Positions 1 to 8,005 of a DNA stretch of 42,329 nt are shown one piece after another. The stretch comes from a virus. Each line of letters opens with the position of its first letter. Within the stretch, counting starts at the first letter, position 1. The notes beneath the pieces are model-generated. The model made no database searches, was not told the origin of the DNA, and saw only the letters and a program-made list of their open reading frames with translations. Position numbers and translations under genes: made by a program. Location: positions 1 to 42,329 of the IMG/VR virus record IMGVR_UViG_3300031857_000425; one strand, written 5' to 3'.

Positions 1-2
1 TT

Positions 3-449
3 GGTTATTGGCGTAAGGCTAATGCCGTTCATGGTTGGTTTGTCCGTGAGTGTGCTAATGGCGTAGATGAGTGCCAAGAAATACCAGTTAGCAAGATCAA
101 GTTGATGGAATTACAGGCTCTATGCCTCTCGGCTCTAGTAAAGCGAAGCCAAGACCCAGCTCCGTTGGAAGAAACCGAGAGCCCTAAATCCTCAAGGTCA
201 GTTCCAGTTGATGGAGAAAACATTGGCGAGTGGCTGGCAAATCAAATGAAGATGGAAACAACGCTGGCAGTAATGGAGAAACAGTTTGAGGACACCTCAG
301 ACCCACTACGACCAGTTGCTGGTTTCTTCTTCGGCGGCACAGAGAAAGACCAGTATTACTATGCCGACCTGCTCCAGACCGCAGAGATTATTGCGGAAGC
401 ATTAGAGAACTATCCAGATGGTGAGTTCATCTACCAAGCCAGTTGGTAA
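3..449 (+). CDS. Conserved phage protein of unknown function, 5' end outside window
   Basis: The frame is open from the left edge, so the gene is cut at its 5' end. An internal ATG at 102 is not the likely start, because the residues before it (GYWRKANAVHGWFV, then a Cys-containing stretch) look like a conserved N-terminus. The C-terminal half carries GFFFGGTE followed by a tyrosine-rich DQYYYADL. As I recall, this pairing of an aromatic 'YWRKAN..H.WFV' start with 'GFFFG....YYY.DL' occurs in small proteins of many unrelated phages without an assigned function. No catalytic motif or membrane segment is visible. It is followed 13 bases later by a hairpin terminator. The frame is certain; the function is unknown. 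Confidence 0.75.
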   Translation, partial: GYWRKANAVHGWFVRECANGVDECQEIPVSKIKLMELQALCLSALVKRSQDPAPLEETESPKSSRSVPVDGENIGEWLANQMKMETTLAVMEKQFEDTSDPLRPVAGFFFGGTEKDQYYYADLLQTAEIIAEALENYPDGEFIYQASW

Positions 450-462
450 TCCGTCCAGCGAG

Positions 463-489
463 CGCCCCTGCCGAAAGGTGGGGGCGTTT
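463..489 (+). terminator. Hairpin terminator after the first gene
   Basis: Arms CGCCCCTGCC and GGTGGGGGCG pair over 10 positions (two G-U) around a GAAA tetraloop. They are followed by only TTT before C, so the U-tract is short and termination may be partial. Confidence 0.6.
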
Positions 490-511
490 CGCATGTCCGG
501 CGCTCGCATTG

Positions 512-600
512 TTTGTGTTGGCCCACCCGCCCCATTCTCTTTCAGAGGGAACAGTAAGTAAAGAGAGATGCCGGTGAGCTGGGAAGTGCGACACGCCGAG
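512..600 (+). promoter_or_regulatory. Repeated leader element, copy 1
   Basis: The element begins with TTTGTGTTG (512-520), continues with a CCCACCC-N-CCCC tract (522-533), then a hairpin at 535-551 (TTCTCTT, loop TCA, GAGGGAA, one G-U in the stem and one next to the loop). AAGAGAGA (561-568) and CGACACGCCG (589-598) follow. The same order of parts recurs at 1269, 2347 and 3466. The hairpin sequences differ between copies but still pair. No convincing -35/-10 pair fits the conserved part. It lies between the terminator of the previous gene and the gene at 688. A short reading frame of 22 codons (568-636, starting MPVSWEVRHAEV) begins right after the purine tract and could be a leader peptide. 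Confidence 0.7.
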
Positions 601-671
601 GTTAAGCAAATGCAGGGAAATGTCGGTGAGCCGTAATACAGTTCTCTCACTAGGCAACACCGCCTAGTTAT

Positions 672-683
672 CTGATAGGAGAA
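672..683 (+). promoter_or_regulatory. Start-associated sequence CTGATAGGAGAA, copy 1
   Basis: CTGATAGGAGAA ends 4 bases before the ATG at 688 and supplies the Shine-Dalgarno AGGAGA. The identical 12 bases precede the ATG at 1424, so conservation extends beyond the ribosome binding site itself. Confidence 0.55.
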
Positions 684-687
684 ATAA

Positions 688-1167
688 ATGACAGTTAAGG
701 AAAACCTTACTGTTGGAAGGGGTGTCGAGGCTATTAACGCTCTCGTCAATTCTTTCCAAGACGCCCAAGAGTTCTCACCTGAACTCGTCGCTGATATGGC
801 AGAAGTAGTGTCTGCCGACATCCAAGTCCGAGATTACTTACTCGGTCTGCCCCTAGAACTATCTGTAAAAGATAGTATCCGCTTCGCAGAAGCCATTATT
901 CCCCTAGTGGAAGAGAAGCACCGCGCCCCTTGGTACGCAGTTCTATCTGCTTACCATTACGAGAACGGCGATACTGAACTCGCTTATCTCGCACTTACCG
1001 AGTGCCAAAAGTTGGCACCCGAGTATTCACTAGCAAAATTGCTAAATCGTGTCTATGGTGCAGGTTGGCCAGCCCCAGCTTTCGCCAGTATGCGAAATGA
1101 ACTACATCCAAAGGTCAAGGCTATGTTGGATGAAACCCACGAGAATGTTATCTCTCCTATCGAGTAG
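688..1167 (+). CDS. DUF4192-like protein (C-terminal part of the family)
   Basis: This 159-residue protein starts at an ATG 4 bases after an AGGAGA site. Residues about 90-140 read 'APWYAVLSAYHYENGDTELAYLALTECQ..APEYSLAKLL.....AG.PAP'. That pattern (a helical hairpin with an (R/N)GD-x-x-LA step, then 'P-x-Y-x-LA-x-LL' and a Pro-containing tail) is the signature I know from the C-terminal part of actinobacterial DUF4192 proteins. The host family is longer, so the phage version appears shortened. Function is unknown in the family. The gene stands alone between a repeated leader and a strong terminator, so it is probably transcribed by itself. It is a useful indicator of an actinobacterial host. 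Confidence 0.65.
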   Translation: MTVKENLTVGRGVEAINALVNSFQDAQEFSPELVADMAEVVSADIQVRDYLLGLPLELSVKDSIRFAEAIIPLVEEKHRAPWYAVLSAYHYENGDTELAYLALTECQKLAPEYSLAKLLNRVYGAGWPAPAFASMRNELHPKVKAMLDETHENVISPIE

Positions 1168-1183
1168 GTAAACGGAAGGGAAG

Positions 1184-1219
1184 GCTCCCCAGCTACGGCT
1201 GGGGGGCTTTTTCTTTTTC
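1184..1219 (+). terminator. Strong intrinsic terminator
   Basis: GCTCCCCAGC (1184-1193) pairs with GCTGGGGGGC (1198-1207), with one G-U. A T-rich tail TTTTTCTTTTTC follows directly. Confidence 0.85.
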
Positions 1220-1231
1220 ATGATCCACAGC

Positions 1232-1264
1232 TGGCGCCACAGCAAAGAGCTGTGCGAAGCGCCA
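1232..1264 (+). other. Long bulged hairpin ahead of leader copy 2
   Basis: TGGCGC-CACAGC (1232-1243) pairs with GCTGTG (1249-1254) and GCGCCA (1259-1264), with a 5-base loop and a 4-base bulge CGAA. It ends 4 bases before TTTGTGTTG of copy 2. Leader copy 4 also has a hairpin ending just before TTTGTGTTG (3437-3463). Confidence 0.6.
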
Positions 1265-1268
1265 AATG

Positions 1269-1344
1269 TTTGTGTTGAATGCCCACCCACCCATTCAACC
1301 CTAAAGGGTTATATATATAAGAGAGACACGCCGCGACACGCCGA
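1269..1344 (+). promoter_or_regulatory. Repeated leader element, copy 2
   Basis: TTTGTGTTG (1269-1277), GCCCACCCACCC (1281-1292), hairpin AACCC-TAAA-GGGTT (1297-1310), an AT stretch ending in AAGAGAGA, then GACACGCCG at 1325-1333 and CGACACGCCG at 1334-1343. In this copy only, TTGAATG and CATTCAA flanking the C-rich tract could also pair. The AT-rich ATATATATAA after the hairpin is the most -10-like stretch among the four copies. Confidence 0.7.
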
Positions 1345-1408
1345 CCGGCCAAGGTCCCACACTTTCGTCCGGAATTCGATACTTTGGGTCCGTGGAAATT
1401 CCACATCC

Positions 1409-1420
1409 CTGATAGGAGAA
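1409..1420 (+). promoter_or_regulatory. Start-associated sequence CTGATAGGAGAA, copy 2
   Basis: Identical to 672-683. It lies 3 bases before the ATG at 1424 and marks that ATG as the true start, rather than the longer in-frame extension back to 1220, which runs through the leader element. Confidence 0.55.
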
Positions 1421-1423
1421 GTT

Positions 1424-1960
1424 ATGTACAAAGTTAAGTACTACGTCACAGACGTAGAAGGTAATGAAGTAGAGAGCGCCACGACTTATACAAATGAAGA
1501 TTTTGGAAGTTATGTCGATGCTGCTAATTGGTTGAGAGAAGAGAGTGAATGGTTCGTTGAAGCATGCACTATCGATACCAAGAATAACCCTGAGTGCGTT
1601 GAGGTTGCGGATGATCTAAAAGTTGTTCGTATTGCTCCTCGCTTAATCAATGAGCCAATCAGAGAGATTCCGCTGCTTGCTGGGATCGAAATTGAGAGCG
1701 CTACCCAAAAAGTATTGGAGGTTCAAAATGATTTCCACTTTAGATTCGAAGGCTCCAACTACCAATGGACACAGTTCATCGGCGAGCGTGGCGTTGTCGA
1801 GTACTGGAAGAAGGACGGTATACAGTTCGAAGGTGGTGACGACAATGTCGTCTACGACATCTTTGGGGAAGACATCTCTGAAGTATTCAATAACAACCTC
1901 GGTATCCACTGTAACCACGTTTACCGCCAGGAATGCCGTCGCTGTGGAAAGGCCGACTAA
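1424..1960 (+). CDS. Hypothetical protein with C-terminal Cys/His cluster
   Basis: The product is 178 residues. The start was set by the AGGAGA site 3 bases upstream of ATG 1424. The N-terminus (MYKVKYYVTDVEGNEVE) looks like a beta hairpin, and residues 50-150 are mixed and acidic. The last 15 residues hold a C-x-H-x(5)-C-x2-C cluster (CNHVY..ECRRCGKAD), which looks like a small zinc-binding end. No family is recognised. It is first in a run of three overlapping small genes: its TAA shares one base with the ATG of the next gene. A DNA- or protein-binding role is possible from the zinc-like tail, but nothing more specific can be said. Confidence 0.75.
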   Translation: MYKVKYYVTDVEGNEVESATTYTNEDFGSYVDAANWLREESEWFVEACTIDTKNNPECVEVADDLKVVRIAPRLINEPIREIPLLAGIEIESATQKVLEVQNDFHFRFEGSNYQWTQFIGERGVVEYWKKDGIQFEGGDDNVVYDIFGEDISEVFNNNLGIHCNHVYRQECRRCGKAD

Positions 1961-2130
1961 TGCCAACGTTTATAGCCAATATTGTGACTCAGCAACTCTT
2001 CATCCAAGCCAGGGATGAGGAGGAGGCTGAGGCCTTATACGATGCCTATTTCAATGAAGAGGACACTGAGGACAAAGTCGAATTCTGCGATTCCAATGTG
2101 TTCCACTATATGGAAGTGAGTTCAATGTGA
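1960..2130 (+). CDS. Small acidic hypothetical protein
   Basis: The product is 56 residues and starts at the ATG that overlaps the previous stop (TAATG). A longer version from 1933 is possible but would overlap the upstream Cys-rich tail in another frame, so 1960 is preferred on coupling grounds. The sequence is a beta-strand start (MPTFIANIVTQQLFIQA) followed by a very acidic helix (DEEEAEALYDAYFNEEDTED). It resembles other short phage proteins with an 'I.A.d.eeA...' pattern, but no family is recognised. Confidence 0.6.
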   Translation: MPTFIANIVTQQLFIQARDEEEAEALYDAYFNEEDTEDKVEFCDSNVFHYMEVSSM

Positions 2131-2264
2131 GCGCCCCAACTATCCAGGATGCCCTGGAGTGGATTGATACCCACATACATCCCGAAGGAGATCTGTGTGA
2201 ATGCCAATGGTGTGTGCTTTATTGGAATCTGATCCTGATCCAAAGAAGCTTGGAGACTAGCTAG
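2127..2264 (+). CDS. Small Cys-rich protein, GTG start
   Basis: This 45-residue frame opens with GTG overlapping the previous TGA (GTGA), the same coupling seen elsewhere in the window. It reads MSAPTIQDALEWIDTHIHP, then a C-x-C-x2-C cluster (CECQWC), a hydrophobic stretch and a stop. It ends 13 bases before a strong terminator, which supports a real last gene of the unit. The Cys spacing suggests metal binding. The function is unknown, and its shortness leaves some doubt. Confidence 0.5.
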   Translation: MSAPTIQDALEWIDTHIHPEGDLCECQWCVLYWNLILIQRSLETS

Positions 2265-2277
2265 TAGCTAATCTCAG

Positions 2278-2318
2278 CCGGTGCGGGGGCCTATCACCCC
2301 GCGCCGGTTTCTTTTTTT
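2278..2318 (+). terminator. Strong intrinsic terminator
   Basis: CCGGTGCGGGG (2278-2288) pairs with CCCCGCGCCGG (2297-2307) around the loop GCCTATCA. TTTCTTTTTTT follows. The eight-base loop is identical to that of the hairpin at 3393-3422. Confidence 0.88.
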
Positions 2319-2346
2319 AGGGAATGCCTGCTCCCAAAGCCAAATG

Positions 2347-2441
2347 TTTGTGTTGACCCACCCTCCCCTTATCCCTTCGGGATAGGGTAAACGGAGAGAG
2401 ATGTCAAGCCGACACGCCGTAAAGATTGTTGCGACACGCCG
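2347..2441 (+). promoter_or_regulatory. Repeated leader element, copy 3
   Basis: TTTGTGTTG (2347-2355), a CCCACCC-N-CCCC tract to 2368, and the longest hairpin of the set (2367-2387: CCTTATCCC, loop TTC, GGGATAGGG, nine pairs with one G-U). GGAGAGAG (2393-2400) follows, then GACACGCCG at 2411-2419 and 2433-2441. As in copy 1, an ATG (2401) directly follows the purine tract and opens a 28-codon frame (to 2487) beginning MSSRHAVKIV. The peptide shares R-H-A with the leader frame of copy 1 because both read through the CGACACGCC motif in the same frame. Confidence 0.7.
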
Positions 2442-2513
2442 AGCTAAATCCCAGCTGTGTGGGATCCAGCTAGTAGCTTTCTCCTAGCTCAGATAGGGCG
2501 AAGAGAGGAACAA

Positions 2514-2843
2514 ATGTCAACAAAAGAGAGATCCTGCGAAGAGAGAATCGCAGAAGAGATGAAAGAGAGAGAGCTGCAATTCAAAGAGATGATGGAGAAT
2601 CCCAACCATGATGACTACTTTGATGACCCAGCTTTAGCTATTGATCACCGTAAGCTAACCCGAGTTATCCTCAGTACTGGCGGCCCAGCTGATCGCATTG
2701 AAATCGAACATTCGTTCGGTGAAGTGGATGCTGTTTGGTATGTCTACCAAGATTGGTATGACGGCGCTCGCCGCGAAGTATTGTCTTCCAGCCCACTTTG
2801 GGCCTATGCTGTGAACCTAATCGAGATGGGAGTAATTGAATGA
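2514..2843 (+). CDS. Hypothetical protein
   Basis: The product is 109 residues. ATG 2514 follows GAGAGGA with good spacing and is preferred over the upstream in-frame start at 2457, which lies in the leader. The N-terminal 40 residues are highly charged and rich in E, K and R, probably a helix. The remainder (DHRKLTRVILSTGGPADRIEIEH...AVWYVYQDWYDGARREV) looks like a compact alpha/beta fold in which a basic 'aWYvYqDWyDga' segment stands out. No family is assigned. It is first of three genes linked by ATGA overlaps and probably co-transcribed to the hairpin at 3393. Confidence 0.75.
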   Translation: MSTKERSCEERIAEEMKERELQFKEMMENPNHDDYFDDPALAIDHRKLTRVILSTGGPADRIEIEHSFGEVDAVWYVYQDWYDGARREVLSSSPLWAYAVNLIEMGVIE

Positions 2844-3073
2844 ACCTTATGACAAGAGGGGCCCTGCGCGGCCGCACACTGCAAAACGGTGCCCTATGCC
2901 TGGAAAGCTGGCAAATTAACCTGGATGAACACGTAGTACTAGCGTTGCGTGATCATTCCTTTGATCCATATGTAGTTTGGACCTCTAGTGACGACGGTAA
3001 CTGCTCCCGCGGCGATTACTGTCAGACGATCCAGGAAGCAATTGCATGCGCTGAGCGGAGGGCTGGACTATGA
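2840..3073 (+). CDS. Hypothetical protein
   Basis: The product is 77 residues and starts by an ATGA overlap with the previous gene. The sequence has a basic start (MNLMTRGALRGR), a central beta-rich part with aromatic residues, a C-x(6)-C pair (NCSRGDYC) and a helical end. No signal peptide or membrane segment is evident. The pattern 'PYVVWTSSDDGNCSRGDYCQTIQEAIACAERRA' resembles small phage proteins in which a regular 'W......g.y...l.eA...a..R' motif occurs, but I cannot name a family. Confidence 0.7.
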   Translation: MNLMTRGALRGRTLQNGALCLESWQINLDEHVVLALRDHSFDPYVVWTSSDDGNCSRGDYCQTIQEAIACAERRAGL

Positions 3074-3378
3074 AAAGCGATGCCATCAGCTGGAGCGAGC
3101 TCGCAGAGCTTACTCATGAGACACAAGTTGCTAAATTTGGTTTTTGTAGCTGCGAAGACGGTCCGAAGAGCTATTCGGACTGTCCCCGCAAGAGATCCGA
3201 GATTGATGACCTGGTCGATACGTACGTAAACACGTTAAAAGACGGCCAGGACGGCCACGATGCGGAAGCTTTGGACCTGATCCATCAGATCTATAGCATG
3301 AATGGCACGGAAGCTACCGACGGCGAGTGCCTGGATCTAATGCTGGAGGTATTGACAGAGTGGAAGAGGTACTACTAG
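3070..3378 (+). CDS. Hypothetical protein with N-terminal Cys cluster
   Basis: The product is 102 residues with an ATGA overlap with the gene before. It carries C-x-C (FCSCEDG) near residue 26 and another Cys near 38 (DCPRKR), possibly a small metal site. A long acidic helical region follows (SEIDDLVDTYVNTLKDGQDGHD..). The rest is helical. No known family is recognised. It is the last gene of its unit, followed 14 bases later by a hairpin without a U-tract. Confidence 0.7.
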   Translation: MKSDAISWSELAELTHETQVAKFGFCSCEDGPKSYSDCPRKRSEIDDLVDTYVNTLKDGQDGHDAEALDLIHQIYSMNGTEATDGECLDLMLEVLTEWKRYY

Positions 3379-3392
3379 TCTGACATTCTCGC

Positions 3393-3422
3393 CCCGGCCA
3401 GCGGCCTATCACGCTGGCTGGG
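3393..3422 (+). terminator. Terminator-like hairpin without U-tract
   Basis: CCGGCCAGCG pairs with CGCTGGCTGG (one G-U) around the loop GCCTATCA, identical to the loop of the terminator at 2278. No T-tract follows, so it may be a decayed or Rho-assisted terminator. Confidence 0.5.
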
Positions 3423-3436
3423 TGCGAGCTCACAGC

Positions 3437-3463
3437 TTTTGCGGCCGATTCTCGGCTGCAAAA
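3437..3463 (+). other. 12-bp hairpin abutting leader copy 4
   Basis: TTTTGCGGCCGA pairs with TCGGCTGCAAAA (one G-U) around a TTC loop. The TTTGTGTTG of leader copy 4 begins three bases later. A-rich and T-rich ends make it terminator-like in both directions. Confidence 0.6.
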
Positions 3464-3465
3464 AG

Positions 3466-3530
3466 TTTGTGTTGGCCCACCCACCCCATTTATTCCTAGG
3501 GAATAAGGGAAAGAGAGAGAGGTGATGCGA
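3466..3530 (+). promoter_or_regulatory. Repeated leader element, copy 4
   Basis: TTTGTGTTG (3466-3474), a CCCACCC-N-CCCC tract (to 3487), hairpin TTATTCC-TAG-GGAATAA (3490-3506), then AAAGAGAGAGAGG (3510-3522). An ATG at 3525 opens an 8-codon frame. Only a degenerate version of the CGACACGCCG motif follows nearby (about 3549). The next gene starts more than 350 bases downstream, unlike copies 1-3. Confidence 0.65.
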
Positions 3531-3882
3531 ATCACAGCTGAAAATGCTTGACACAGCCGATCCGGCCGTGATAGCCGAAGAGCTACCGGCCAAGTAGCAA
3601 TTGTCGACAAAGCTACTTATCGATTCCGGCTACTGCCAAATGTCGACAAAGCGACACTGCGGATATGGCCAGATTTACAGCCCTATGGCAGAGAGAGCTA
3701 TCTGATAAGAGAGAGAGAGCTAAGAGAGCTCCGACACGCCGAGAGAGCTATATCTTCGAAATACTAGGAATATGGGTTGTCGGAGGGTATTGTCTGCCAG
3801 GTAAGTCATAGGTATCTATATGCCTATCCAGTAATCGATATACGATTACCGCGAAATTCACTTACAGATAGAAGATATACCG

Positions 3883-4059
3883 ATGATAAAGGAAGTTCAG
3901 CTACCTAAGCTAAACTCACGTAAGAAAGTATCTACCTGCATAATCGATACCGAGACTAATGAAGTACTTGTATATGCAGAATTAACTCCAGCATCTACCA
4001 AGCGTATGATTAAGGAATACGCTATCTATGGTATCTATGCAGAAGTGAAGGTGGCATAA
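3883..4059 (+). CDS. Small basic hypothetical protein
   Basis: The frame gives 58 residues beginning MIKEVQLPKLNSRKKVSTC and ending AEVKV, and its TAA directly abuts the ATG of the next gene at 4060. The sequence is basic at the N-terminus, has 'CIIDTETNEVLVYAELTPAS' (a likely beta hairpin) and a tyrosine-rich end. The upstream Shine-Dalgarno is weak (AGAAGATATACCG). The exact junction with the next gene and codon use like its neighbours support it as real. Function is unknown. Confidence 0.65.
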   Translation: MIKEVQLPKLNSRKKVSTCIIDTETNEVLVYAELTPASTKRMIKEYAIYGIYAEVKVA

Positions 4060-4647
4060 ATGGCTACCGCGGAATTGACCCTATATAAGGGCTACACAAT
4101 TGCAATTGACTATGACTCTGATCCACAGAATCCCCGCGAGTGGGATAACTTCGGCACTATGGTATGTATGCACGGCAGATATGCCCTAGGTGACTCATTC
4201 CGTATCGATAACCAAGACTTGCATTCATGGCAAGAAGTCTATGACCATATTGAAACTGAGTTAGGTGGCATGGTCATCCTTCCCCTATATCTCTACGATC
4301 ATTCAGGGCTATCTATCAAGGTAGGCTCATGGAATGGCATAGTCCAACATGCAGGTTGGGATAGTGGGCAGGTCGGGTTCATATTCTGCACCGACGGCGA
4401 TATGGTCCGTGAAGGTATTGCAACCCTTGACCAAGCCGAAGCCCTATTGCGTGGCGAAGTCAATACCTACGATAAGTATCTTCGTGGCGACTTCTATACC
4501 TACCGCATTACCAAGGCTGAGACATGCGAAGCTTGTAATCACACCACGGAAAATTTTCAGGACTCCGTAAGTGGATGGGAGACAGCCGACGATGCTATGA
4601 AAGAGGCTATGCAAGTAATCGACTATCTAAGTGGGGAGCGTATCTAA
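4060..4647 (+). CDS. Conserved phage protein of unknown function
   Basis: The product is 195 residues and starts exactly after the previous stop. The central segment 'MVILPLYLYDHSGLSIKVG.....HAGWDSGQVGFIFCTDGDMVRE' matches a pattern I recall from widespread hypothetical proteins of large phages ('LPly.YDHSG.t......cpWDSGqVGfIy.t'). The C-terminal part holds C-x2-C (TCEACNH) and a helical tail. No catalytic site is known in the family. It begins a run of seven closely linked small genes (gaps or overlaps of 0-4 bases) reaching to 5841. Family membership is fairly sure; function is not known. Confidence 0.75.
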   Translation: MATAELTLYKGYTIAIDYDSDPQNPREWDNFGTMVCMHGRYALGDSFRIDNQDLHSWQEVYDHIETELGGMVILPLYLYDHSGLSIKVGSWNGIVQHAGWDSGQVGFIFCTDGDMVREGIATLDQAEALLRGEVNTYDKYLRGDFYTYRITKAETCEACNHTTENFQDSVSGWETADDAMKEAMQVIDYLSGERI

Positions 4648-5003
4648 TGACTATCCAAGAGCGAGTATTAACTGGCGACTTATCTTTCGATCAGTATTAC
4701 GCCGAGTATGCCAAGTCCCTGATCCCTACGGATATTGAGGGAGCATCCCACTACCGCGTTAAGGCGCTTAAGTTGTTCGAGCATTCAAGAGGAGTGGCGT
4801 GGAAGGCTAGTATCTACTACAACAATAAGAAGATCGGCCAAGTCGATAACGATGGCAACGGCGGATGTAACTTTTATACCTTCAACACGCCTGAGATACG
4901 ACACGCCTATGAGAGCTTCGTGAGAAGTAATTACCCTGAGACAGTCTATGATCGTGACGATCACTTTATCGAATACCTAATGGAAAGAGACGGCGTTGCA
5001 TGA
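4647..5003 (+). CDS. Hypothetical protein
   Basis: The product is 118 residues. ATG 4647 overlaps the previous TAA by one base and is preferred over the in-frame start at 4575 inside the upstream gene. It begins MTIQERVLTGDLSFDQYYAEYAKSLIP. The middle 'WKASIYYNNKKIGQVDNDGNGGCNFY' looks like a beta-hairpin module ending in GNGG, and a helical region follows. A similar 'i.y..kkiG.v.ndG.GG...y' signature occurs in other phage hypothetical proteins. No function is known. Confidence 0.72.
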   Translation: MTIQERVLTGDLSFDQYYAEYAKSLIPTDIEGASHYRVKALKLFEHSRGVAWKASIYYNNKKIGQVDNDGNGGCNFYTFNTPEIRHAYESFVRSNYPETVYDRDDHFIEYLMERDGVA

Positions 5004-5212
5004 ACACTGAACACCACTTTATAGTTAAGTACGTATCCGGCATGGGCTGGATGTGGGATATTGCATCCGAAGAGATACGATTCCCGGAAGGCACAGTATG
5101 GACCGGCGACCGGTGGGTTATCTCTGATAGCTCACCGGAAGTCAACCAAGCCGACCGAGAGGTATGCGAACAATTAATGAGATCAATTGATGTAATGAAC
5201 GGAGACTTCTAA
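5000..5212 (+). CDS. Hypothetical protein
   Basis: The product is 70 residues with an ATGA overlap with the upstream gene. It is tryptophan-rich (GMGWMWDIASEE, VWTGDRWVIS) and compact, probably beta-rich with a C-terminal helix. No family is recognised. Its stop shares one base with the next start. Confidence 0.68.
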   Translation: MNTEHHFIVKYVSGMGWMWDIASEEIRFPEGTVWTGDRWVISDSSPEVNQADREVCEQLMRSIDVMNGDF

Positions 5213-5391
5213 TGAAAATAACCGCCAGCGCAACTATCACTTATGACACAGATGATGTATTATCTGAGCTAAGACGGGACTATCCGGAAGATAGTTTTGA
5301 TGAGAAGGACGCCAAAGAGATGATTCACAACTGGATACGTGATGACTTCGGAGGTCTACTGATCGAATACACAACAATAGAAGAGAGCTAA
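5212..5391 (+). CDS. Small acidic hypothetical protein
   Basis: The frame of 59 residues starts by a TAATG overlap with the preceding stop and ends one base before the next ATG. It begins MKITASATITYDTDDVLSELR, is acidic, and ends in a helical 'KEMIHNWIRDDFGGLLIEYT'. Tight linkage on both sides is the main support. No function is known. Confidence 0.65.
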   Translation: MKITASATITYDTDDVLSELRRDYPEDSFDEKDAKEMIHNWIRDDFGGLLIEYTTIEES

Positions 5392-5392
5392 T

Positions 5393-5677
5393 ATGGCCAA
5401 GAAGATTAATTATACTTTTAGTGCTGATCTAACAAAAAACACCGAAAAGGGTGGCGCATGGATCGGTCACTATGTAATACGTGATGACCAAGAGAGTGCA
5501 CCAAAGGGTCAGTTCAAAGCATGGGCTAACGCTTCAGCTGGAAAGAGATGGCTGAAAGCAATGGCCGCCGAGCACACACCACGCAAGAGCGTAAAGCTTG
5601 AAGCTGGAGAGAAGCTTGATGAAAAGGGTAAGCCAGTAGTATTTAAAGGTTCGTTTGCATATAAAGGAGAAGCTTGA
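5393..5677 (+). CDS. Small basic hypothetical protein
   Basis: The product is 94 residues, lysine- and alanine-rich, with aromatic residues spaced through it (MAKKINYTFSADLTKN, GAWIGHYVIRDD, GKRWLKAMAAEH). The net positive charge would allow nucleic-acid binding, but no fold is recognised. Its stop overlaps the next start (TGATG). A Shine-Dalgarno AGAGAG lies upstream within the previous gene. Confidence 0.68.
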   Translation: MAKKINYTFSADLTKNTEKGGAWIGHYVIRDDQESAPKGQFKAWANASAGKRWLKAMAAEHTPRKSVKLEAGEKLDEKGKPVVFKGSFAYKGEA

Positions 5678-5841
5678 TGGATATCTTGCCTGATCCGCTA
5701 ATTGAACCGATTAGCCCTAGCATCCGTCGAGAAGATATCGACGAAGACGAAGATGATTTTGAGATTGAAGAAGAAGAGTATGACGGAGATTATGATAAAC
5801 ATGCTCTCGACGAGATCCGGTTTGGGTTTCACCAAGATTAA
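5677..5841 (+). CDS. Small, extremely acidic hypothetical protein
   Basis: This 54-residue frame opens with an ATG that overlaps the preceding TGA and follows AAGGAG. More than a third of its residues are Asp or Glu (REDIDEDEDDFEIEEEEYDG), and it ends with an aromatic tail. Strongly acidic small phage proteins can act as DNA mimics, but composition alone does not show that here. It is the last plus-strand gene, and 100 bases lie between it and the convergent terminator. Confidence 0.62.
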   Translation: MDILPDPLIEPISPSIRREDIDEDEDDFEIEEEEYDGDYDKHALDEIRFGFHQD

Positions 5842-5940
5842 CTGAGCTATGAGAGAGTCAAAGCGGTCCTAACCTTTCTTACGCCAAGGATAGTCATGAT
5901 CGGTCCCTATCAACCGTAGCTATACCTGCTCTCAAATAGA

Positions 5941-5971
5941 AAAAGCCCCCTGCTTCTCACAGGGGGCTTTT
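5941..5971. terminator. Convergent bidirectional terminator
   Basis: AAAAGCCCCCTG and CAGGGGGCTTTT pair perfectly over 12 positions around a 7-base loop, with T-runs on each strand. It serves both the plus-strand left arm and the minus-strand operon ending at the ribonucleotide reductase. Confidence 0.92.
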
Positions 5972-5980
5972 AACTTTTAA

Positions 5981-8005
5981 CTATGGTTTTGGTACTTCAC
6001 AGAAGTCAGTACTGCAATACTTCTCACCGATCGCATCGGCAGCCATACCGGCGTACACGTCAGTAAAGTCAATAGGCAATAGCTTTAATGTGTATTCATC
6101 GTAGACTTCTTTAGTTGTCTGCGTGTACGGCATTTGAGGATACACAGCGTTACCCATTGGTAGGAAAGAGACAGTCTTTAGCTGGCCATCGAACATATGT
6201 AGCACAGTGCCAACCGCATCCTTTTCTTTCTCTGCATCGAAAGAGATAGTTACTGAAACTGAGTTATCAGACCAGTAACGCTGAGCTGTAGCGGCAAGAG
6301 AAGTCTTTTCATAGATTGATACGTCCTTCTCTGATCGCAAAGCTTGTGACTTGATTGGAAAGAACACTACGCTTGTAGTCTTAGGTGACTCACTAGCTGG
6401 TTCTACCACGTAACCGGATGCTTTAAACAAAGGAAGCATTGGATCATCGTTAGCAAAGCGGATAGCTCTCATGAAGTATTCTCCGCCCGGTGTCCAGTGG
6501 ACTCCAGGTGATTCACCGGCTAGGATCGATACAGTTCCGGATGGCTTTACAGTTGTAGTCTTAATTGACTCACGAATACCCAGCCATTCAGAATAGGTCT
6601 TGTCGTACTGCTGGACTGAGGCGTAACCTGCGTCCATCCAGTCACGAAGTGTTGGCATACCTACACGATCTGCAAAGTTAGCTACACCGGACATTGAAGT
6701 TCCGATACGGCGATTGCGTTGCATGATTGCATTGGTTTCTTCCCAGTGAGTAGGAAGGAGTGTTACAGTTTTGGCATATAAATACGCAAACTTTAATGTG
6801 CGCTTGAAGTCTTCAAGTGAGTCATGTCGATTGAGGTATGTCTCTACCAAAGTACAGCATTCAAAGCTTTCAAGTGATTGTTCAGCGCATGGGTTGTACC
6901 CCGCGGCTCTGTGGTCCTTATTGTTTACTGGATCAATTAGACGGCCATACTTGCGTGTGACGTCCATCCAAATAACTCCAGGCTCACCATTGAGTGCAAT
7001 AGCTTCAGTGATCTGGCTGAGGTCATCGCCAACACAAACTTCGACGCTGTTGTTGCTCATCCAGGCCCATCCTGGGTTTTTTGGATCATACGAGTTACGC
7101 TCTGGGTATACCTCAGCGTTCTTTAGGTTTAGAAAGTCTTTATCATCAAGACGACCCATAAGAAGCTCAGCACTACGGCGGACATTGCCAGATACAACGC
7201 ACACTCCAATAAGGTTGCCAAGATCCGCGATGTCTTTACGAGTAAGTTTTTCACCGGCACGTCCCTTAAAAATAGATCGGATGTAATTGTGTAGCTTCTC
7301 TAACGGCTCGTGTCCGGCCGCGGTTCCGCCAAAGGTTTTAATCGGAGTACCGGCTGGTCTGATCTGTGTGTAATCAAATACTGGGCTCTTCTGATCTGGT
7401 TTAAGGTAGCTGTTGATGATGAGCGCGACTGACTCAACCCAACCTTCACGGGTGTCTGGGATAACGATTGGTGCGGTGTCTGGTTCCGGTGCATAGATGG
7501 TAAATTCCTTATCTGCGCCCTTGTCATCGAAGCCAACTCCCACGCCAAGCATGGAGGCTTCCATAAGGAAGGCGAATGGTTTTGCCGGATCAAGCTTCGT
7601 CATTGAAGACGTTGATACGAATGAACAGTTCTGTAATGCCGCTGAGTTCTTCTGCTCATTGACGAGTGGTGTACCCATAACCCAAAGTCCGCGTCCTGGC
7701 GGGGTCCACTTTAGATTGAACAGGCGATCAAAAGCTTCTTTAGCTGATGCCTGAGCTTTAGCGTCTGACCAAGGTAGTCGCTGAGCTTTTGCGTGATCCT
7801 TTTGGATCGAGTACATGCCATTGATGACCCGCTCGCAAACGTCAACCCATGTCTCTTTGGTTCCGTCAGCTTTTAGCCTGGAATAAGTTCGAAGGAAAGT
7901 AATCTCTCCTACTGAATTACCGGCCGCATCCGCATACCCCCAAGGTACTTTCTTCTCCTTGTATGAGCTTACGAAGTCGTCTGCTAAACGAAACGATAGT
8001 GACAT
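5981..8005 (-). CDS. nrdJ: Class II (adenosylcobalamin-dependent) ribonucleoside-triphosphate reductase, monomeric type
   Basis: The product is 674 residues. It reduces ribonucleotides to deoxyribonucleotides for phage DNA synthesis using vitamin B12. The key cysteines match the Lactobacillus-type monomeric enzyme: Cys127 (NCSFV) and Cys384 as the substrate-level disulfide pair, the thiyl-radical Cys373 and Glu375 in NPCAEQ (371-376), and the C-terminal shuttle pair Cys664/Cys669 (YCSTDFC). 'PSGTVSILAGESPGVH' is the phosphate-binding loop typical of the family. The start has GGGAGG 7 bases upstream. The enzyme needs no partner subunit, so one gene suffices. It is the last gene of the minus-strand block and ends at the convergent terminator. 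No cobalamin riboswitch was found in the 110 bases upstream. Identification is secure. Confidence 0.95.
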   Translation of the reverse strand: MSLSFRLADDFVSSYKEKKVPWGYADAAGNSVGEITFLRTYSRLKADGTKETWVDVCERVINGMYSIQKDHAKAQRLPWSDAKAQASAKEAFDRLFNLKWTPPGRGLWVMGTPLVNEQKNSAALQNCSFVSTSSMTKLDPAKPFAFLMEASMLGVGVGFDDKGADKEFTIYAPEPDTAPIVIPDTREGWVESVALIINSYLKPDQKSPVFDYTQIRPAGTPIKTFGGTAAGHEPLEKLHNYIRSIFKGRAGEKLTRKDIADLGNLIGVCVVSGNVRRSAELLMGRLDDKDFLNLKNAEVYPERNSYDPKNPGWAWMSNNSVEVCVGDDLSQITEAIALNGEPGVIWMDVTRKYGRLIDPVNNKDHRAAGYNPCAEQSLESFECCTLVETYLNRHDSLEDFKRTLKFAYLYAKTVTLLPTHWEETNAIMQRNRRIGTSMSGVANFADRVGMPTLRDWMDAGYASVQQYDKTYSEWLGIRESIKTTTVKPSGTVSILAGESPGVHWTPGGEYFMRAIRFANDDPMLPLFKASGYVVEPASESPKTTSVVFFPIKSQALRSEKDVSIYEKTSLAATAQRYWSDNSVSVTISFDAEKEKDAVGTVLHMFDGQLKTVSFLPMGNAVYPQMPYTQTTKEVYDEYTLKLLPIDFTDVYAGMAADAIGEKYCSTDFCEVPKP

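Follow-up and report, generated by a model that had tools for sequence, protein, structure and literature searches.

Integron attC sites combine conserved ends with a diverse but paired interior and lie between single-gene cassettes. REP, ERIC and NEMIS are intergenic, palindromic, hairpin-forming repeats with conserved ends, and the stoperators of mycobacteriophage L5 are asymmetric sites of roughly 13 bp, for which we know of no covarying foldback. Promoter early stem-loops (PeSLs) are repeated intergenic elements that carry a stem-loop and a promoter; these promoter-terminator composites occupy gene borders of a plastic early region and are linked to gene shuffling. PeSLs belong to the T4-type phages (Arbiol 2010; Comeau 2014; both as cited in PMC4503421). 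In cluster K mycobacteriophages a short asymmetric start-associated sequence (SAS) is repeated 5' of many early-type genes, and its extended form, ESAS, has a 17-bp imperfect inverted repeat with a variable spacer (PMC3203893). We characterized an element repeated four times in the window, that is, in the whole 42,329-base IMG/VR virus fragment under study (IMGVR_UViG_3300031857_000425). Rather than an mRNA leader, it appears to be an element of gene boundaries that has not been described before. Our preferred reading, to which we give a probability of about 0.42, is that it is a transcription-unit boundary (insulator) to which a factor binds through an invariant tag, and which doubles incidentally as a gene-shuffling joint. 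What can be read at the level of sequence is the element's position, its invariant tag and covarying foldback, the fact that it is confined to these phages, and the way its forms replace one another between genomes sharing gene families.

The element and its three forms

The initial annotation had reported the order TTTGTGTTG, CCC-tract, hairpin and GAGAGA at 512, 1269, 2347 and 3466, and all four copies were recovered with an exact core and a possible foldback. The pattern GTTTGTGTTG-N(1-7)-CCCNCCC matched four times on the plus strand of the window and not at all on the minus strand, and there were no matches in 60 Markov sequences of window length. A fifth TTTGTGTTG, at 7030 on the minus strand, lies within the ribonucleotide reductase gene and is regarded as chance. 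The core also proved longer than first described, as it takes in the preceding G and a following purine; this invariant tag, GTTTGTGTTGR, is the 10-base GTTTGTGTTG plus the purine.

All four copies lie on the plus strand and have the form that we term HALF. Copy 1 (511-568) consists of GTTTGTGTTG (511-520), the C-tract (522-532), a hairpin (535-551) and GAGAGA (563-568). In copy 2 (1268-1326), GTTTGTGTTG (1268-1277) is followed by the stem TTGAATG/CATTCAA flanking the C-tract (1282-1292), a second hairpin (1298-1309) and GAGAGA (1321-1326). Copy 3 (2346-2399) has GTTTGTGTTG at 2346-2355, the C-tract at 2357-2367, the hairpin CTTATCCC-TTC-GGGATAGGG at 2367-2387 and GAGAGA at 2394-2399. Copy 4 (3465-3518), the last of the array, has the same parts at 3465-3474, 3476-3486, 3490-3506 and 3513-3518.

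A scan of IMG/VR with TTTGTGTTG-N(0-6)-CCCACCC yielded at least 118 stretches; a sizeable part of those listed were chance matches within genes, and the remainder had the full layout. Further scans with CCCTCCC and CCCGCCC brought the set to at least 103 distinct HALF copies that also end in GAGAG or AAGAGA (105 were counted in the stem-score test below, less two chance matches). The family core runs from an A/T-rich stretch of 3-4 nt through GTTTGTGTTG, G or A, 0-6 nt, CCC-N-CCC-N-CCC, an arm and foldback, GGGA and a short tandem repeat to GAGAGA. The tandem repeat has a unit of 2-4 nt (TATATA, GTAGTAG, GTTGTTG, GTATGTATG) and varies from copy to copy. Where the spacer is a single nucleotide (53 HALF copies, among them window 3465-3518), the loop is preceded by C[A/G]TT and followed by GGGA[A/G]T, and the purine at the two places always matches (16 A/A, 18 G/G, 0 mixed).

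Besides these copies, IMG/VR contigs held 65 relatives of a DYAD form and 21 of a MIXED form. In DYADs a long inverted repeat of at least 59 nt, GTTTGTGTTGGG...CCCAACACAAAC, has the same tag at its left end, and the tag closes a long dyad whose end is CCAACACAAAC; the interiors are unrelated to each other and mostly self-complementary. MIXED copies have a C-tract 3' of the left tag and end in a hairpin flanked by TTGG and CCAA, followed by CACAAAC. The feature common to the three forms is the tag. Loci that could be oriented numbered 120 HALF, 65 DYAD, 21 MIXED and 21 with the left tag only. Most genomes carry HALF alone, or DYADs with one MIXED copy, while 10 of 51 gene families adjoin both HALF and DYAD. 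The form is therefore a property of the genome and not of the gene, and one form looks exchangeable for another.

In 29 whole records a reversed control pattern had no matches, and true matches ranged from one to many per record, mostly in short arrays. The arrays comprise 3-13 copies, are confined to one arm and have one copy per junction between units; tag matches examined elsewhere in phage genomes were mostly the motif within coding sequence. The many related phage contigs support the initial view of a shared, structure-bearing element of the early arm. The contigs appear to come from phages that infect abundant freshwater actinobacteria, which are hard to culture. A search of 85,000 bacterial and archaeal species genomes gave eight pattern matches; all of them lack the rest of the element and look like chance. 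The pattern was not found in DSL-LC01, the nearest named phage by ribonucleotide reductase. A search of Rfam 15 at gathering score gave nothing near threshold in window 1-6100 and no hit in 12 loci (102 kb), and a literature search found no paper describing the element.

A covarying stem around the C-tract

Because arm lengths vary, covariation was assessed by a permutation test and in a fixed-length subset. In HALF copies whose spacer has 2 or more bases, the spacer and the stretch 3' of the C-tract are usually reverse complements, giving a stem that encloses the tract and that the initial annotation had missed. The mean score of this stem was 10.7 with true partners, as compared with 5.34 +/- 0.55 when partners were shuffled among copies. 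The subset with a 3-nt spacer (18 distinct copies) had 88% of cells paired (66.5 +/- 3.2% in shuffles), 24 cells changed on both sides (8.8 +/- 2.3) and a covariation score of 0.676 (0.252 +/- 0.046). The signal vanished when the partner was slid by one column. Within the window the stem is strong in copy 2 only.

Covariation had originally been ascribed to a different hairpin, a second foldback further downstream. Its arms exist on paper, and four unrelated arm pairs from one contig are by themselves insufficient to show covariation. Over 102 copies its pairing was 12.57 as compared with 11.97 +/- 0.22 in shuffles, a small excess that some shuffles reached, and the folded cores of window copies 1-4 were no more stable than shuffles (z +0.39, -1.70, -1.47 and -0.26). 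The claim of a covarying structure is supported by compensatory changes in the HALF copies of many related phage contigs, carried mainly by the C-tract stem and not by the hairpin first named. DYADs fold far more stably than shuffles, with a mean z of -8.8 on one strand and -8.5 on the other, and one MIXED copy gave a multibranch fold closed by GTTTGTG/CACAAAC. A four-tract G-quadruplex on the G-rich strand was considered by eye and set aside, since DYADs lack such tracts altogether and many copies stop at three.

Position relative to terminators, operators and promoters

Flanks of HALF copies were oriented by their genes, as called by a rough gene caller. The element lay between two genes of its own direction in 71 of 91 cases, placed 3' of the upstream gene's stop codon and hairpin. 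The 55 nt upstream of HALF copies had a mean fold z of -2.2, and DYADs often stand directly 3' of a terminator T-run. The terminator-like hairpin noted earlier ahead of each window copy was borne out, with z of -3.0 to -7.3 for the stretches immediately 5' of the four. Copy 1 is preceded by a GC-rich hairpin on the plus strand at 456-508 (444-511 folds with z -3.0). The region 5' of copy 2 (1184-1266, +) holds a terminator hairpin with a T-run at about 1184-1218 and then a second hairpin abutting the element (1219-1268, z -3.5). Ahead of copy 3 there is a terminator with a stem of 13 pairs and a T7 tail (2276-2319, +). Two strong hairpins precede copy 4 (3380-3463, +; z -7.3), the second of which (3437-3463) abuts the element.

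Downstream, the distance from tag to start codon had a median of 168 nt (10-90%: 150-203). Operator-like sites intervene. Among 103 HALF copies, a CRP-like TGTGA-N6-TCACA palindrome followed in 49, CGACACGCC in 25, GTTAT repeats in 23 and DnaA boxes in 8; DnaA boxes also lay 3' of 37 of 83 dyad-type copies. None of the four classes occurred in one shuffled set, and the classes differ between genomes. Such sites, overlooked at first, follow every copy in the window: CGACACGCC at 589-597 (+) after copy 1 and again at 1334, 2410 and 2432, and the CRP/GlxR-like palindrome GTGATGCGAATCAC at 3522-3535 (+) after copy 4, followed by TTGACA at 3548. A -10-like hexamer 40-60 nt 5' of the start codon was found in 33 of 78 units as compared with 6.5 +/- 2.4 in shuffles, a count that is only indicative because the motif expression was picked after viewing the sequences; the peak at a single distance from the start codon is the stronger point. 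The -10-like sites have a median position 120 nt downstream of the tag. The element itself has no usual -35/-10 layout, as the initial annotation had stated. That annotation had also proposed a common leader; with operators and -10-like sites between element and start codon, the element instead lies upstream of the promoter of the next gene, so that only read-through would transcribe it. Two further candidates were rejected: TTTGTGTTG as a promoter -35, since the spacing is variable and the -10-like sites are elsewhere, and a nut- or put-type antitermination site, which lies just 3' of the promoter in the transcript, whereas this element is upstream of the -10-like sites.

The left 5.7 kb of the window contains small rightward genes and the remainder mostly leftward genes, among them those for DNA polymerase A, DnaB, an SNF2-type helicase, primase and ribonucleotide reductase, with weak baseplate matches. 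Between copies 1 and 2 lies a plus-strand gene for a DUF4192-like protein of 159 aa (688-1167), whose family sits between elements in several other contigs. The gene 3' of copy 2 (1424-1960, +; 178 aa) has no family. The unit 3' of copy 3 begins with a gene of 109 aa (2514-2843, +), and the final gene ahead of copy 4 encodes 102 aa (3070-3378, +). A second, sequence-diverse hairpin occurs in the 5' untranslated region, between the -10-like site and the Shine-Dalgarno sequence, at window 640-690 (ACTAGGC-AACACC-GCCTAGT) and in three of the loci fetched from other contigs (L024, L055, L096). Perfect DnaA boxes (TTATCCACA) lie 5' of many single genes, downstream of DYADs (e.g. L024, L026, L042, L154), suggesting DnaA-linked regulation or titration. 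Copy 4 is followed by a long non-coding stretch with TGTCGACAAAG repeats and GCTACTGCC (window 3536-3900), and the last element of several other arrays has such a stretch in the same place (L006, L015, L034, L064, L066, L070). This stretch is a candidate origin or major regulatory region.

The boundary reading and its alternatives

In the early arm of related actinophages the element stands between one early gene's terminator and the operators and promoter of the next gene, and there it would act as a transcription-unit boundary. The tag would be recognized by a protein of the host or the phage. The foldback, formed in read-through RNA or in locally unwound DNA, may help to uncouple or stop transcription that leaks in from the gene upstream, so that each small gene would remain controlled by its own operator. 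Since the same short tag flanks every unit, phages could also exchange units at these boundaries, which would then act as joints.

Several observations weigh against this proposal. No protein was identified, HALF hairpins are weak, and the -10 expression was chosen with the sequences in view; the four units of the window were assigned operators and one TTGACA but no clear -10. Intact HALF and DYAD copies have no following T-run, so neither is an intrinsic terminator, and since most units already have a terminator the backstop may be redundant. Copies reversed with respect to the genes occur at five loci in dyad-type genomes (L010, L021, L033, L042, L074), which a purely RNA-level role would not allow. 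Finally, similarity breakpoints fall mostly at gene ends and not at the element.

The alternative that survives best, though we think it unlikely, makes exchange primary and regulation secondary: short conserved ends would recombine and swap cassettes, in the manner of PeSLs or of attC as folded single-stranded DNA. Shuffling of units, on which the boundary reading draws too, is seen in the clustering of array genes, with the same families in many orders. The successor gene was the same in 44% of comparisons within a unit as compared with 26% across an element, and of the element pairs sharing a similar flanking gene, only one of the two sides was similar in 189 and both in 43. High-scoring segment pairs started just upstream of the tag about twice as often as expected (43 versus 21), and the invariant ends with a variable yet paired interior resemble attC. 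However, a change of neighbours is expected at any unit border too, and the form tracks the genome and not the gene, so the element does not travel with its cassette. Fifteen of the longer records, some of which may be incomplete, were searched with Pfam models; none encoded a tyrosine or serine recombinase (PF00589, PF00239; controls positive) or a phage-borne Y1 (HUH) transposase. Sharp recombination breakpoints at the tag were looked for and not found; the sequences are old (65-70% identical) and similarity usually stops at the gene end, so that exact joints are unreadable. The element also differs from attC in its end motifs and in that its cassettes carry their own promoters. As for REP, ERIC and NEMIS, copies within one genome here share their ends only, and the missing Y1 transposase sets the element apart from REP/RAYT systems and IS200-IS605 ends as well.

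With boundaries that would serve as gene-exchange joints, the element has its nearest relative in kind in the PeSLs. Like them, it has hairpins upstream and -10-like sites downstream at gene borders. Neighbours change at the elements, but breakpoints lie mostly at gene ends. In contrast to PeSLs, which carry a conserved T4-type early promoter within the repeat, its conserved part is neither promoter nor terminator. It is the invariant tag, accompanied by non-homologous covarying foldbacks in three architectures, and promoter and operators lie outside it and differ between genomes.

A role in RNA is less probable again. Read-through or 3' untranslated RNA would fold at the element and be processed (e.g. 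by RNase III) or bound, tuning the upstream mRNA. Consistent with this, the element has mostly one orientation relative to the genes and DYADs are near-perfect long hairpins, whose thermodynamic folds contain 114 G-U pairs in the sense strand and 36 in the antisense, an excess driven partly by a few related copies. The strand-neutral stems of 47 dissimilar DYADs, however, show no clear bias (33 G-T versus 24 A-C mismatches), HALF folds are as weak as shuffles, a terminator stands upstream of the element, and the reversed copies argue against it. One further possibility, to which we attach a similarly small chance, is that the 10-11 nt tag is recognized together with a structure of freely varying sequence (a C-loop hairpin, a long dyad, or a multibranch fold closed by GTTTGTG/CACAAAC), bracketing and exchanging individually regulated genes without a dedicated integrase.

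It is improbable that the element is a DNA site, akin to a centromere or a gyrase site, at which a replication, partition or nucleoid protein acts and for which the gaps between units are simply a convenient place. Inverted-repeat architecture, dispersed copies, and DnaA boxes and exact parS-like palindromes in the same regions would suit such a site, but there is one copy per unit junction in one arm, no candidate protein was found, and ParB (PF02195), expected for a phage-plasmid centromere, was encoded in none of the 15 records. The parS core GTTTCACGTGAAAC has nine exact matches in 1.4 Mb of fetched loci (L022:666, L026:2469, L031:2729, L064:5609, L070:2390, L101:2417, L103:2292, L135:9151, L151:489), several near an array element; phages with these sites may use the host ParB. 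The element resembles L5 stoperators, at which a bound phage repressor stops transcription, in its dispersed intergenic sites of one orientation, and differs in its covarying foldback and in that no repressor was identified here.

Just as improbable is the leader or promoter element of the downstream gene first proposed, which the shared orientation and fairly constant distance to the next start codon would fit, but which the intervening operators and -10-like sites, an upstream stop only 60-100 nt away across mostly hairpin, a foldback of variable length that precludes sigma-type spacing, and a Sigma70_r2 gene in only 1 of the 15 records all oppose. That gene (L021:1975-2469; 164 aa) encodes a phage ECF-type sigma factor and has a reversed element after its stop. 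Nor does the element belong with the cluster K sequences suggested initially as an analogue: SAS (GGGATAGGAGCCC) is tied to the start codon, whereas the element lies about 170 nt upstream, ahead of the promoter, and GGGATAGGAGCCC at start codons had no matches with up to 2 mismatches and 8 with 3 mismatches (6.4 expected), showing no enrichment. DYADs are inverted repeats with a variable interior, but their sequence and position differ from those of ESAS.

In kind, then, the element is one of the intergenic regulatory sequences bracketing modular early genes; less probably, recognition of a tag plus a free structure makes it something new. An element at every early-gene border provides a simple sequence handle for finding phage takeover genes. 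On the boundary reading it would show how phages of freshwater actinobacteria keep small genes separately regulated, and would provide, independently of the T4-type phages, a second case of the modular shuffling known from them. Were the foldback itself recognized, the site would be unusual in that shape and tag persist while the sequence is free to diverge.

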